Origin: Natronomonas salinimetallica | GTDB taxonomy: Archaea > Halobacteriota > Halobacteria > Halobacteriales > Haloarculaceae | Assembly (NCBI RefSeq): GCF_013839515.1 | Contig: NZ_JACDNQ010000013.1 | Span: 34,506 to 91,686, forward strand | DNA length: 57,181 bases | Direction of reading: 5' to 3' | Shown: in pieces, positions 47,457 through 53,384 of the stretch | Layout: every line of letters starts with the position of its first letter | Position numbering within the stretch: the stretch's first letter is position 1 | Notes under the pieces: model-generated | Seen by the model: the letters and a program-made list of their open reading frames with translations, nothing else | Database searches by the model: none | Told to the model about the DNA's origin: nothing | Made by a program: the position numbers and the translations under genes

Positions 47457-47531
47457 GGGCCAATAGCTCAGCTAGGTATGAGCGCTCGGCTGATAACCGG
47501 GAGGTCCTCGGTTCAAATCCGAGTTGGCCCA
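47457..47531 (+). tRNA. trnI: tRNA-Ile (GAU)
   Basis: 75-nt cloverleaf. Acceptor arms gggccaa (47457-47463) and ttggccc (47524-47530) pair fully; D-arm gctc-gagc, anticodon arm ctcggct-GAT-aaccggg with anticodon GAU for isoleucine, T-arm with the gttcaaatc loop, discriminator A at 47531. The CCA is not encoded. No intron. It is followed within 140 bp by a toxin-antitoxin pair and restriction-modification gene, the usual position for an integrated island. Confidence 0.95.
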
Positions 47532-47667
47532 CTCGGTTTCCGCACGGTCCTTGGCCGTCGGAAATCGGTGGCCAAACTCCCGTAGGCGTCTCATTTCGGA
47601 CGATACCGACTTGATAGCTCTTGCTGTAGACGGTACACATACGTAGGCCAGGCGCATATCTGTTCAA

Positions 47668-47961
47668 TTAGAAGCCGTACCGCTTGTGCGCGTCGTCGAT
47701 GGGGACGATCTCCAGCACACGCACCTCGTTCTCGTCCTCCAGGACCGTGTAGATAGCCGTGTAGGTCCGAGAGGTGTGAATCCGGTAGCGGTCGCGGCGG
47801 CCGTCGATGGGGCGTTTCTCCTTGTCCCCACGACCACGGCCCGGATACGGGCTCTCCGCCAGATACCCGAGTTTCTCCTTGCAGACCCGCTCGGTCTTCT
47901 CGTCGGCGACGTCGAGGAACTCGCAGGCGTCGTCACCGAGCAGGACGGCGTGCTTAGACAT
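47668..47961 (-). CDS. RelE/ParE-type toxin
   Basis: 97 residues. Small basic protein with the RelE-fold pattern: N-terminal helix region, then GDKEKRPIDGRRDRYRIHTS and RTYTAIYTVLEDENEVRVLE, VPIDDAHKRYGF at the end. The Arg/Lys/Tyr residues of this C-terminal sheet are the catalytic region in RelE mRNA interferases. It follows an antitoxin gene and overlaps it by 8 bp. It should cleave mRNA or inhibit translation unless bound by the antitoxin. Confidence 0.82.
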   Translation of the reverse strand: MSKHAVLLGDDACEFLDVADEKTERVCKEKLGYLAESPYPGRGRGDKEKRPIDGRRDRYRIHTSRTYTAIYTVLEDENEVRVLEIVPIDDAHKRYGF

Positions 47962-48441: not shown

Positions 48442-51354
48442 TTAACCGCTAAAACTAGAGAGCCCCTCTTGTCGACCGGAATCATCCTCAAACGACATAT
48501 CAATGTGGCCTTCCAAATCATCCAGTTCCTTAACCAAAGTCTCGACCTGTTGACCCTTTTCACGTCTGGTACGCTTCAATGTCTCTGCGATATCTTGGAG
48601 CTCGTCAACTGTCGTGTCAAGCTCAAGAATATCAATGGCCACCGCATCAAGGTCGTCTCTGGCATCCTCATCGCCAGCAACTAGTCGATTGAAGGCGTTT
48701 TTCACCAGCTCTTTTTGTTCGTCCGAAAGCTGACCGGGGTCGATAATACGAAGCGTGCGCAGGTCACTTCCGGATAGATTTACTGCGCCACCGCCGGTAA
48801 TTCGACCGTGGCTCTCGATAATGATCTTCGTGAGACTCGAGTTCAGCAGTCCGAGCAACAGGTCAGGATTGACGGCGTTCGGCTGTACGAGTAGGAATCG
48901 GTTGCTTGCCACAACATCGCTGTCGGTTCTTATGAACAGCCTGTGAGTATCCATCGCCTGTGGACAGACTATCGGAGATTTTTTTGAATCGAGGCTACCC
49001 ATATTGAACCACGGGTCGTAGGTATTGAGGGACTTGTTACTGCTTGACGATTGCTTCTCGGCCCACTTGATATATGAAAGGACACCATCGTAGCCGTCAG
49101 CGCGGAGTGAGGACTTTATTCGGTCTGCTGTGTCGCTAGTATCACCGATACCAGACATTGAGGTCACCTCCTCGACATAGTCGTGCATATCCAGCATCCA
49201 TTTCTTTGCGTCCGAGGGAGCGTGTTCGTAGCCATCAACTTCCTTGATACTTTTTATCGCTGGAGTGGTGAACTCCTGTTCAATGTTCCGAGATCTTACA
49301 TCGTCTTCATCAAGGATAAAGACGGGGTTAGCGCCTGTCTTCTTTCCTCGGGTGATATTCGCAATGTTGGAGAGCTCCACCGTGCGGCTGTCTTCAAGGA
49401 CAGCGGTATAGAGAGCGGGTGCGTTAATGTAGTGGTGTAGCTTGTCGCCAACATTCTCCATTAAATAGGACTGCCGGACAGAGATTGTACGGTAGTTTGG
49501 TCGACTGTGAATCTTCAAATAAGATTCCTTGGGGATATTGTACCCACGGTCTATGACACGGATGATGTCATCAGGATCCATCTTCTCATTTATTCGGATG
49601 AAATTAGTCTCCGTGTTTTTCCGCTCGGCGATATCATCACACCGCTCCATCATCAACAACACCGTGTCGACAAGAGCATCCTGAAACACACGCTTCCGGA
49701 AGCCGACTACTGCCTCCAATTTATAATGGCCATACATGAACTGTTGGAGCGATGGGCCGTAGTCTGCCACCATCCACTTTGTCGGTACAATCCACGCGAG
49801 TTTACCCCCTAGCTCAAGAAATTGTGTAACGTGTGTTATGAAATAGCAATAAAGATCACTTCTGCCGTCAACCTGCTTATTTCCATCGTAGTACGGTGAT
49901 TTTGAGCTTGGGCCAAACCGTTTCAGATGTTTGCGGTACATTTCACGATTTGGATATAGGTGTTCTTGCCGGACATACGGCGGGTTAGCCGCGGTGGCGT
50001 CAAATGTACCGATAGCTTGGCCTTTGTCCGGCGTATTATTGCTGGTGCCTCCAACTCCGAGTCGGTGACTATTACGCCGCTTCGTATCTGGATCGAGGTG
50101 AAAAAAATCCTCGTAGTACGCAAACAGTTCATTGGTGGGCTGATGTATATTCCGAGTCGCGAGGTTTAATGCAGTCAGATGAAGTGGGAACTTGTTGATA
50201 TCGACAGCCGTGATGCGGCGAATGGTTTCCTGATGCGATAGCCCATTCAAATCATCGAACTGCTTGTAAGCCTCGACTGTAATAGATCCAGAGCCGCTAC
50301 AAGGGTCAATAAACCGGTCATCTGTCGAGTCGATGGCCCATCGGGCGAGGATTTGCCCGATTTCTCTTGGCGTGTAGAACTGCCCGAGTTCCTTCCGTTC
50401 GGCTGTCGGAATGAGCTCTTGATAGATCTGCCCGACAACGTCTGAATTGATGTCTCGGAGTGGCTCCTGTTCAATACTTTTTGTGAAGGTATGGAGACGA
50501 CGCTTCGTGTGTTCATCTTCCGGAATCTCTTTGAAGAACCCGCTGTCGTCCTTGAAGATAGCCTCATAATCAATCTCCTCCATTATTGACTCAAAACAGT
50601 TCGACAAGTGCTCATCCAATTTCTCAACGGTTACACCATTATATATTGGGTCCATTGGGAGGCCGCTCTTTGTTTCCACATTTTGACCCCGGACTAGTTC
50701 GTAGAATACTATCCGGTTCATCAAAATGTAGGCGTACTGTTGAGCGGCGATTCGGAAGGTGTCCTCAACGTCAGGGTAGTCATGTGGGTAGTCGTTTTCC
50801 CTTGCCCATTTGACAAGGAGCGATTGGAAATCATCATCCCCGTCGAATGTCTTACTAATCATATTCTCGTATATTGGGTAGATACTAGTATGGAAACTGC
50901 GCAGGCGACTAATGATGAGCTCATCGAAGTCGAACACTTCCCCCTCTCCTTGTTGTATGCTAACTACATCGTCAAGAAATTCATCAATAAAATCGGGCAA
51001 CGACATCTTCCGCAGATCGTAGTGCCGGCGTTCAAGTTCGGTGAGGCTTGTCGAGGTCTCCGTGCGCCGGAATAAGAAAACGTCATTCTGATTTGCAGTA
51101 GCGAATAGAGATATACCCTTGTCCCTCGCGTATCTGTGACCCTGTTTAATAACATCAATTGAGTGCGGGTCAATGCTTGCCTTTTTGACCTCGATAGCAA
51201 CACCCTCACGAACCAGCGAAGGAAGATATATATCTACTGCCCCTGAACTAGTTTGTTCCTCTCCCCGGGGCGAACCAAATTCGGAGTCATTCGCTTCAAT
51301 ATAGTCCTCTAGGGCCCCAAAGAGACGCGCTTGAAATTCAAACTCTGCAGGCAT
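48442..51354 (-). CDS. Type IIG-like restriction-modification protein (nuclease + N6-adenine methylase)
   Basis: 970 residues from ATG 51354 (MPAEFEFQARLFGALEDYIE). N-terminal PD-(D/E)XK nuclease: Asp41 in SGAVDIYLPS and Glu55-Val-Lys57 in GVAIEVKKAS. A helical linker follows, then the methylase: KELGQFYTPREIGQIL (about 322), SAM-binding motif I IDPCSGSGSITVEA (about 350), and catalytic NPPYVRQEHLY (about 457). The C-terminal third (GANPVFILDEDDVRSRNIEQ, RFLLVQPNAVNPDLLLGLLN) resembles a target-recognition domain. A single chain carrying nuclease, methylase and specificity domains is typical of the Eco57I group. Lower GC than the core genes; horizontally acquired. Confidence 0.88.
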   Translation of the reverse strand: MPAEFEFQARLFGALEDYIEANDSEFGSPRGEEQTSSGAVDIYLPSLVREGVAIEVKKASIDPHSIDVIKQGHRYARDKGISLFATANQNDVFLFRRTETSTSLTELERRHYDLRKMSLPDFIDEFLDDVVSIQQGEGEVFDFDELIISRLRSFHTSIYPIYENMISKTFDGDDDFQSLLVKWARENDYPHDYPDVEDTFRIAAQQYAYILMNRIVFYELVRGQNVETKSGLPMDPIYNGVTVEKLDEHLSNCFESIMEEIDYEAIFKDDSGFFKEIPEDEHTKRRLHTFTKSIEQEPLRDINSDVVGQIYQELIPTAERKELGQFYTPREIGQILARWAIDSTDDRFIDPCSGSGSITVEAYKQFDDLNGLSHQETIRRITAVDINKFPLHLTALNLATRNIHQPTNELFAYYEDFFHLDPDTKRRNSHRLGVGGTSNNTPDKGQAIGTFDATAANPPYVRQEHLYPNREMYRKHLKRFGPSSKSPYYDGNKQVDGRSDLYCYFITHVTQFLELGGKLAWIVPTKWMVADYGPSLQQFMYGHYKLEAVVGFRKRVFQDALVDTVLLMMERCDDIAERKNTETNFIRINEKMDPDDIIRVIDRGYNIPKESYLKIHSRPNYRTISVRQSYLMENVGDKLHHYINAPALYTAVLEDSRTVELSNIANITRGKKTGANPVFILDEDDVRSRNIEQEFTTPAIKSIKEVDGYEHAPSDAKKWMLDMHDYVEEVTSMSGIGDTSDTADRIKSSLRADGYDGVLSYIKWAEKQSSSSNKSLNTYDPWFNMGSLDSKKSPIVCPQAMDTHRLFIRTDSDVVASNRFLLVQPNAVNPDLLLGLLNSSLTKIIIESHGRITGGGAVNLSGSDLRTLRIIDPGQLSDEQKELVKNAFNRLVAGDEDARDDLDAVAIDILELDTTVDELQDIAETLKRTRREKGQQVETLVKELDDLEGHIDMSFEDDSGRQEGLSSFSG

Positions 51355-51864
51355 GTATCTCGAAACAGAGCCTTCGTAATTGAATCTTGCCCCAGCTGCT
51401 GCGGTAGTATTCACTCCAGAATCGAGCAGCTGAGATGCGAGACGGCGAGACCGAATAACCCCCACCCGAATGCGGGGGAGGGGCAATCCCTCACGCCCAG
51501 TCGTGATGGTCAAGGCCTTCGTAGTGCTTCAGGCGACTGTCGATCTCCCACGCCTCTCAGCCACACTCGTAGTAAGGATGTCGGCGAGTTTGTCGAAATT
51601 GCTCTTGTCGAGTTCGATACCACGGTTTCCGCGGTAGGTCAGAGGACTGCTCGGACGATCTCTTTCAGACCGGTAGCGCGGGCAACAGAGGACCTCGCGG
51701 CGCTCGCCTCCGAACGCAGCAATTCAAATGGGGACATTGCATTCGGGTGATGCTGCCGCGTCACTCTTGCCCGCTACGCTTTCACAGCGCCAGCTCTACC
51801 CGAGCAACAATCTGCTTCCGAAGAGCGTTTATGGTATATGAACCTACCGATAACTGGCTATACA
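51355..51864. other. 510-bp non-coding region with decayed gene remnant and hairpin
   Basis: Carries a GC-rich imperfect hairpin at 51456-51484 (cccccacccgaatgcggggg) and a decayed minus-strand reading frame (see pseudogene). Immediately before the AT-rich AbrB gene are promoter sequences (gtttatggtatatg at 51827-51840). The left part also serves as upstream region of the R-M gene. Confidence 0.6.
51491..51640 (-). pseudogene. Decayed C-terminal gene fragment
   Basis: One minus-strand frame reads QEQFRQTRRHPYYECG, stop, then WEIDSRLKHYEGLDHHDWA and a stop at 51491. The peptide after the internal stop has an ordered protein-like composition and a conserved-looking ending, unlike flanking frames; a frameshift before it (LTYRGNRGIELDKSNF in the other frame) also looks coding. 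I cannot name the family. Next to it lies the GC-rich hairpin, so this could be a transposon remnant (e.g. IS200/IS605 type), unproven. Confidence 0.35.
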
Positions 51865-52992
51865 ATGCCTAAGCAAAATAAAGTCGGACAAGATAATTCA
51901 GTGGTGATACCTGCAAACATCCGAGAACAGCTGGGAATAGAACCAGGTGACATGGTTGAATGGAAAATAAAAAGGGAATCTGCGACGATTAAATGCAAAG
52001 ATGAGGGACATAGTGTGGTCAATAAAAAAGATATTAGAGTTTCAAGAAAAGATCTGCTGAAAATACTCGCTGGATCCATTGGAACTATTGGAACCATCGC
52101 AGCAGGGCCTGTGTCAGATGCTATGGAAGTTAGTGAAACGCTTGATCCACATCTTCCAGAGATGTCAACCAAGTCTGTCTATTCCAGGCTATTATGGTTT
52201 GCAGATGATATATCTATTACCCCCGGCCATGGCTCCTCGAAGCTCGCTAATTTAGGTGAAATTGACCTTCGTGCTCAAGCCGAGCTTACCAGTGCTATTT
52301 TGAATTCAACCGAGGATGTTGAACCCAAAATGGTAACTGAGCCTGACATAGATGAGACAGGGCATATCGGAACCACTGCTGGCCCACTCGGCTCAGAGTT
52401 TGTGGCATTAAGTATGGGATATAACCCAGATTCTGTCGGAGATTACCAGGGGAGATTACCTTATATATTCGATCTATCTCCCTCAGAGGACTATCATGGA
52501 ATGTCTCTTGCCGAAGTACGAAAAAACCAAACAAACTGGCCGATCGTGAAATCATACGCCGATGAACCACCGGTTGAGCCTGTAGAGAGGTCCGACGGGT
52601 CTACGCTCGGGAACTCTAATCGGCCAAAATACAGAATCGATTATGGCATGGTTGTGGCTAAGCGAGTTAATGAGGGATGGGAGCGATACGATGAGTATGA
52701 AGACTACTCTTCGCTCACCGAGTACCAAGACAATATGCACTTCATTGTTGCTGGATGTCACGGTGAAGGGACACTTGCCGCAACGAAAGCACTCGGTGAT
52801 GAAGGTCTGTTGAGACAACTGGAACAGGAAATCCCATCTGAAAAAGGAAGGTATCAGGCGGTTTTTTCGGCACACATTGATCAATACAAAAAAGAAAAAG
52901 ACAGAAACGGCGACACAATCTATATCCCGGATTTTCAGCAGATATCTGTCTATGACGCAATCCCCCTCCCAGAAGCAGAACAAATCTATTAG
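51865..52992 (+). CDS. AbrB-domain protein fused to an unrecognised C-terminal domain
   Basis: 375 residues from ATG 51865. Residues 1-45 are a swapped-hairpin AbrB/SpoVT DNA-binding domain (QNKVGQDNSVVIPANIREQL, EPGDMVEWKIKRE). Residues 58-84 form a Tat-like or hydrophobic segment (VSRKDLLKILAGSIGTIGTI). From about 110 the sequence is a globular domain with GPLGSEFVALSMGYNPDSVG, DYQGRLPYIFD (190-203), KYRIDYGMVVAKRVNEG (255-271) and FIVAGCHGEGTLAATKAL (293-310); the last looks like a glycine-rich ligand loop. I do not recognise this domain. AT-rich unlike the rest of the window; next to an R-M gene. TATA-like tttatgg lies 33 bp upstream. Confidence 0.85.
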   Translation: MPKQNKVGQDNSVVIPANIREQLGIEPGDMVEWKIKRESATIKCKDEGHSVVNKKDIRVSRKDLLKILAGSIGTIGTIAAGPVSDAMEVSETLDPHLPEMSTKSVYSRLLWFADDISITPGHGSSKLANLGEIDLRAQAELTSAILNSTEDVEPKMVTEPDIDETGHIGTTAGPLGSEFVALSMGYNPDSVGDYQGRLPYIFDLSPSEDYHGMSLAEVRKNQTNWPIVKSYADEPPVEPVERSDGSTLGNSNRPKYRIDYGMVVAKRVNEGWERYDEYEDYSSLTEYQDNMHFIVAGCHGEGTLAATKALGDEGLLRQLEQEIPSEKGRYQAVFSAHIDQYKKEKDRNGDTIYIPDFQQISVYDAIPLPEAEQIY

Positions 52993-53384
52993 AGCACTAT
53001 TTCATAAATATCGTCAATTGAGTCGAGAGAGCGCCCGCCGATTTTCATCGCTCGCTCGGCGGCACCTATACGGGACCGTACACACGAGCGAGCGTATGCG
53101 TATCCGAACCGACGAGGACAAAACGTATTTGAGTTCGTCGTTTTATAGTAGAGATCGGAAGACAAGACACACTCGACCGCACGGCGGCAGTGCGATCGAT
53201 GTGTACATAGTTGCGATGTCTACTATAGTTGCGATGTTCACTATAACTCGATACAACCACTATCGCTGCTGAGGCGGTCGGATTCTGTCATAGACACTCA
53301 GAACTCGCCCGCCTCATCCTCTAAGTTAAGCGACCGACAGTCCCGGCTCAACAATTAAGTACGACGGCTGATCACGTAAATGAG
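52993..53384. other. 392-bp intergenic region with palindromic element
   Basis: No gene supported. Carries copy B of the 84-bp palindromic element and a partial duplication of its right end (53228-53246, gttgcgatgttcactata). Confidence 0.7.
53144..53227 (+). mobile_element. 84-bp palindromic (MITE-like) element, copy B
   Basis: Same length and ends (tatagtaga / tctactata) as copy A at 44270 but in the opposite orientation; 82 of 84 positions match after reverse complement. Its right end is followed at once by a second, degenerate copy of the last 18 bp, suggesting the element was targeted or slipped. Confidence 0.9.

Follow-up and report, generated by a model that had tools for sequence, protein, structure and literature searches.

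A haloarchaeal AbrB-type protein carries a widespread, unnamed Rossmann-like domain and may be a one-component regulator

Ordinary AbrB proteins, such as the transcription factors and antitoxins of the AbrB/MazE (SpoVT-AbrB) type, are short. Membrane-tethered one-component regulators of the ToxR/CadC type are built from a cytoplasmic DNA-binding domain, a membrane segment and a sensor, in that order. The haloarchaeal protein described here is related to both plans. Its 47 N-terminal residues are alike to AbrB/MazE proteins, but it carries in addition a C-terminal domain of 275 residues for which no listed family gives a match. It shares the domain order of ToxR/CadC-type regulators, a likeness that is clearest in acidobacterial relatives, but differs in its sensor fold and has an AbrB domain instead of a winged helix and a Tat-like segment instead of a Sec-type transmembrane (TM) segment. 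For the C-terminal domain, the closest described systems were found by structure comparison. The periplasmic cellulose-synthase subunit BcsB, a large periplasmic assembly protein, matches the models of both our protein and a bacterial relative (prob 0.87-0.99), although no sequence similarity to it was detected. The fold also matches N-terminal domains of GH67/GH115 alpha-glucuronidases (prob 0.97-0.99), which we take to be ancillary and not catalytic domains; theirs are parts of enzymes, whereas our protein has no glycosidase domain. The top fold match of the bacterial relative is the S_layer_C domain (PF05124) of Methanococcus/Methanocaldococcus (9fsa), a 2-fold anchor dimer of the S-layer (PMC11410804). 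It has a GGPxxN loop followed by an AGxxxxTxAA helix, in the same order as in the family described here; unlike our protein, however, S-layer proteins are without a DNA-binding module.

We analysed a 57,181-nucleotide stretch of the genome of Natronomonas salinimetallica (the window), in which a 375-residue open reading frame occupies positions 51865-52992 of the + strand. An alternative in-frame ATG lies upstream at 51838; it is the less likely start because it overlaps the TATA-like element TTTATGGTATAT (51828-51839, +), about 30 nt 5' of the ATG at 51865, a spacing that would fit a leaderless haloarchaeal mRNA. A haloarchaeon of the same order but another family (G205) encodes a homologue (L006) with 59% identity and the same layout of an AbrB part, a Tat-like linker and an S-layer-like C-domain. 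Between the two genes, pN is 0.27 and pS 0.80 across the whole protein; for the C-domain, the values of 0.21 and 0.84 indicate purifying selection and thus support a coding sequence. The 59%-identical homologue together with selection rules out an orphan or chance ORF. The earlier note on this DNA, made from the letters alone, had described a gene of this length with two sharp motifs at residues 185-203 and 296-310; the gene is real, and both motifs are there. On the 3' side of the gene, an 18-bp tandem repeat occurs twice at 53207-53242, ATAGTTGCGATGT(C/T)(T/C)ACT.

The short AbrB domain that the note had recognised is clear in database searches. The swapped-hairpin domain covers residues 1-47 (51865-52005, +), with matches to PF04014 (E 2.4e-8; 34.2 bits, exceeding the Pfam gathering cut-off of 24.7) and TIGR01439 (4.1e-7), and the AbrB N-domains 1z0r and 1yfb are among the structural matches of the window model in Foldseek. 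The AbrB part of the G205 homologue is degenerate, with a net charge of about -3, and its PF04014 match (E 0.024, 15.0 bits) falls below the cut-off. Identity between the two proteins is 26% in the AbrB part, 48% in the Tat-like part and 62% in the C-domain. Judged from these sequences, DNA binding may not be the conserved job of the AbrB part; the conserved function would reside in the C-domain, with DNA binding by the AbrB part being putative.

The Rossmann-like C-terminal domain comprises residues 101-375 (52165-52989, +), as supported by alignments and homologues, and the AlphaFold2 model is confident over residues ~131-370 (pLDDT ~75-94). The ~275 residues have no match in Pfam, NCBIfam, PHROG, PADLOC or PDB sequences. 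A known enzyme or Pfam domain was considered for this part, and no catalytic domain match was found. Family alignments define the signature [G/A]GPxxN ... DYG[L/M][I/V] ... AGxxGxGTxAA. Most relatives have the GGPxxN loop; its counterpart in the window protein is AGPLGS (52378-52395, +), in which Ser replaces Asn, and the G205 protein likewise has GPLGS without the Asn. The first of the two sharp motifs, GYNPDSVGDYQGRLPYIFD (residues 185-203; 52417-52473, +), contains an LPYxF element common to archaeal relatives. The DYG strand motif is found at residues 259-261 (52639-52647, +), and its Asp is invariant in a 27-row alignment. According to the family alignments and the alignment with 9fsa, the second sharp motif, AGCHGEGTLAATKAL (residues 296-310; 52750-52794, +), is the counterpart of the AGxxGxGTxAA loop and helix.

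The link to the S-layer anchor was observed at the level of the family, and the window protein is not assigned to S_layer_C. The AlphaFold2 model of the bacterial relative L044 (pLDDT 88.5, pTM 0.85) gave 9fsa, the S-layer anchoring domain of Methanococcus voltae, as the first Foldseek match (E 4.6e-5, prob 1.00), followed by BcsB and then by GH115/GH67 ancillary domains. With the window model, Foldseek matches were weak (BcsB, prob 0.87, E 0.015), and 9fsa was absent among the best 50. In sequence searches, six bacterial members matched PF05124 weakly (E 0.0016-0.2), always at the GGPxxN loop, with a best score of 18.5 bits under the Pfam cut-off of 23.9; no family member reached this cut-off, and the window protein had no S_layer_C match in the Pfam search. 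A PDB search with the family profile (alignment A6) recovered 9fsa at E 0.24 with both motifs in order, and hhalign of the family against S_layer_C-type proteins gave 75.5% (E 2.4e-5, 28 columns), whereas the window protein's own close set (alignment A2) gave no S_layer_C signal in hhalign. The earlier statement that this region could not be placed thus holds for a Pfam or NCBIfam name but not for the fold, which lies near the S-layer anchor, BcsB and the GH67/GH115 ancillary domains. We also noticed archaeal proteins (L145, L147, L148, L151 and L152) that combine a signal peptide-like N-terminus, an S_layer_C-type GGPxHN domain and a multi-TM region; genome G448 has several copies of proteins with such a domain and multi-TM region.

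Degenerate-peptide scans of the genome and viral contigs with the window protein returned nothing, nor did tblastn against plasmids and phages, because the family is too divergent for such searches. Haloarchaea G080 and G371 carry the domain without AbrB, in G080 behind a hydrophobic N-terminus, and the reverse search with the G080 protein recovered the G205 protein at 5.4e-6 and the window protein at 2.2e-4. A profile search added archaeal members from Methanolobus, another haloarchaeon and other members of the phylum outside Halobacteria. The DNA pattern DYG..AGxxGxGT located six loci (Nocardia, Sulfopaludibacter, Methanolobus, and deltaproteobacterial, Nitrospirales and Caldisericota MAGs), all six of which carry the domain. 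With a wider profile, the domain turned up in 17 of the 199 Acidobacteriota and 7 of the 148 Actinomycetes genomes sampled. Profile and pattern searches together place relatives in Halobacteria, methanogens, Acidobacteriota, Actinomycetota, Myxococcota, Nitrospirota and Caldisericota, so that the previously unplaced protein now has a family. The sole viral-contig match was a chance match in a repetitive ORF, and a candidate in G295 (L009), itself a Hef-type helicase, was likewise a chance match. Two copies are irregular: that of G479 (L025) is broken by several stops, and the N-terminal part of that of G371 (L080 7339-7638) lies in another frame.

What precedes the domain varies among the relatives. 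An XRE helix-turn-helix (HTH) is found in L070, L072 and others (HTH_31, E 7.1e-9), a sigma-4-like HTH with a weak Pfam match in L073 and L077, and a Cro-like HTH in L050. Relatives with an XRE or sigma-4-like fusion lack a TM segment. In Acidobacteriota, the domain is preceded by a module that has no Pfam name and that we read as HTH-like, and then by a TM helix; other relatives have only a hydrophobic N-terminus. A tree built from the domain alone puts each N-terminal type into one supported group and the AbrB pair with archaeal forms lacking AbrB. These observations suggest that unrelated DNA-binding modules were fused to the domain repeatedly and independently, and this recurrence is the reason why we read the domain as a sensor. 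A domain that is uncharacterised and has neither a Pfam nor an NCBIfam model thus stands behind at least four different DNA-binding modules across phyla, which is the pattern expected for a sensor of something general. The S-layer-anchor and sugar-handling folds point to envelope glycans or nucleotide-sugars as candidate ligands. Two actinobacterial genomes each have a pair of XRE-fused paralogues that converge on each other at a distance of a few kb (L134 4863-5957 and 7997-9076; L135 4901-6034 and 8357-9304), and in L135 and L136 the XRE gene overlaps at its end with a gene of 430-436 aa for which Pfam gives no match.

The hydrophobic piece between the two domains, which the note had called Tat-like, is real but weak. 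Tat signals were judged by a twin-arginine [ST]RRxFLK-type motif before a weakly hydrophobic stretch. Both haloarchaeal copies share S-R-[K/R]-x-x-L-K followed by a Gly/Ala/Ile-rich stretch. In the window protein, these are S-R-K-D-L-L-K at residues 60-66 (52042-52062, +), with RK and not RR, and the weakly hydrophobic residues 64-83 (52054-52113, +); the homologue has SRRVVLK, which fits the consensus, at the aligned place, and in both proteins the motif comes after a domain of ~55 residues. The motif with a hydrophobic stretch never arose when the window protein was shuffled 100,000 times and arose three times in as many shuffles of the homologue, for a motif that had been chosen after being seen. 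The maximum KD19 hydropathy is 1.36 in the window protein and 1.70 in L006; both are less than that of a usual TM helix, and acidobacterial relatives reach 1.5-3.0 at the same position. Tat signals are usually less hydropathic than normal TM helices. A buried core, the other possibility raised in the note for residues 58-84, is not supported, since pLDDT is below 50 at residues 68-103. As far as sequence can tell, a signal anchor is plausible.

The reading we favour, to which we give slightly less than an even chance, is a one-component regulator with an envelope- or sugar-type sensor domain, possibly tethered to the membrane. For this protein we infer DNA binding, membrane topology, ligand class and allostery as follows. 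A dimer of the N-terminal AbrB domain would bind DNA in the cytoplasm, and the Rossmann-like C-domain would use the loops AGPLGS and AGCHGEGT to bind a ligand of envelope or sugar type, or a partner. The Tat-like segment would probably be an uncleaved signal anchor, which would put the sensor outside the membrane and the AbrB part inside, a layout also apparent in the relatives from Acidobacteriota with an HTH-like module, a TM helix and the sensor. Binding of the ligand or partner would alter the dimer geometry and hence operator binding. If the Tat-tethered topology is true, the protein would be a single-chain transcription factor signalling across the archaeal membrane. It is a bolder and unlikely generalisation that the family is a pan-prokaryotic, unnamed class of one-component regulators reading the state of envelope or glycans, with the haloarchaeal form having a Tat-exported sensor and AbrB inside.

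The domain can also work in the cytoplasm, because the XRE-fused relatives have no TM segment. A purely cytoplasmic one-component regulator, in which residues 58-84 only link the two parts and the ligand of the C-domain is soluble, for example a nucleotide-sugar, would agree with these relatives, with their sigma-4-like-fused counterparts and with the weak hydrophobicity of the segment in the window protein. Genes for sugar-nucleotide enzymes with clear Pfam matches near three relatives suit this alternative as well as the favoured reading (NTP_transf_4 near the G080 copy, GDP-mannose dehydratase near that of Nocardia, and UDP-glucose/GDP-mannose dehydrogenase near that of G417). However, the Tat-like motif and the Gly/Ala-rich stretch are kept in both haloarchaeal copies and are rare in shuffles, and in the acidobacterial versions a clear TM helix separates the domain from the N-terminal module. 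We consider the purely cytoplasmic alternative somewhat unlikely. Still less probable to us is a surface protein, exported or anchored in the membrane, in which the AbrB part would be a vestigial dimerisation module that does not bind DNA and the C-domain would be structural, as in the S-layer anchor. The closest fold is indeed that of an S-layer anchoring domain, a 2-fold dimer (PMC11410804), and the AbrB part evolves fast and drops below the Pfam cut-off in G205. The AbrB domain of the window protein, on the other hand, is intact and above the cut-off, in other clades this position is taken by bona fide HTH modules for DNA binding, and a cytoplasmic N-region of 59 residues ahead of a Tat signal would be unusual.

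The gene lies in an AT-rich segment, as had been noted, of 45-47% GC against 60-70% around it. Its divergent neighbour is a real restriction-modification (R-M) gene, a type IIG-like REase/MTase (48442-51513, -; PADLOC E 1.3e-46), which was not found at the other homologue loci compared. The segment is a variable one adjacent to a tRNA, because similarity to four congeners ends at ~47607, shortly after the tRNA-Ile gene (47457-47532, +), and everything beyond that point belongs to it, including the gene described here; no convincing insertion repeat was found at this tRNA-Ile. Just past it, the variable segment contains a ParE-like toxin gene (47668-47961, -; PF05016, 5.6e-4, below the cut-off). 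In G205, the homologue shares its AT-rich segment of ~2.3 kb (L078 8846-11168) with no other sizeable gene. The segment follows a tRNA-Trp gene that contains an intron, and an imperfect repeat of the 3' end of this tRNA (14 exact bases, then 24/25) lies on the far side. The segment has no integrase and could be either a remnant or a minimal insertion; in several relatives, similarity likewise ends at or just after this tRNA-Trp. A SLATT_4-like protein with two TM helices is encoded divergently from the Sulfopaludibacter domain gene (L028 6356-6868, -; E 5.9e-6, just below the cut-off). As a partner it was rejected, for it occurs at that locus only and neither beside the sister locus L141 nor elsewhere.

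The note had proposed a regulator or a defence sensor, and the combination of a DNA-binding module with a sensor-like, recurrently fused domain stands. A defence or conflict sensor (SLOG-like, for a nucleotide signal) tied to the neighbouring R-M gene is highly doubtful: the adjoining R-M gene, the SLATT_4-like gene beside L028 and the tiny insertion at a tRNA in G205 would suit it, but the MTase does not occur at the other loci compared, no family member tested has a PADLOC match, the SLATT homologue is confined to one locus, the G205 copy stands as sole sizeable gene, and the nearest folds are surface and sugar domains, with no SLOG in Pfam or among the listed PDB fold matches and no match to the domain in a viral fold library. 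The note had suggested homologues without the AbrB part as a guide to neighbours; across the compared loci, with or without AbrB, neither a defence gene nor any other partner gene is a constant neighbour. Directly 3' of the domain gene, an actinobacterium has a PP2C-type phosphatase gene (L140 4757-5575, -; PF13672, 2.9e-8), and a PP2C-type gene with a weaker match (0.035, below the cut-off) lies directly 3' of a haloarchaeal domain gene (L080 8690-9574, +).
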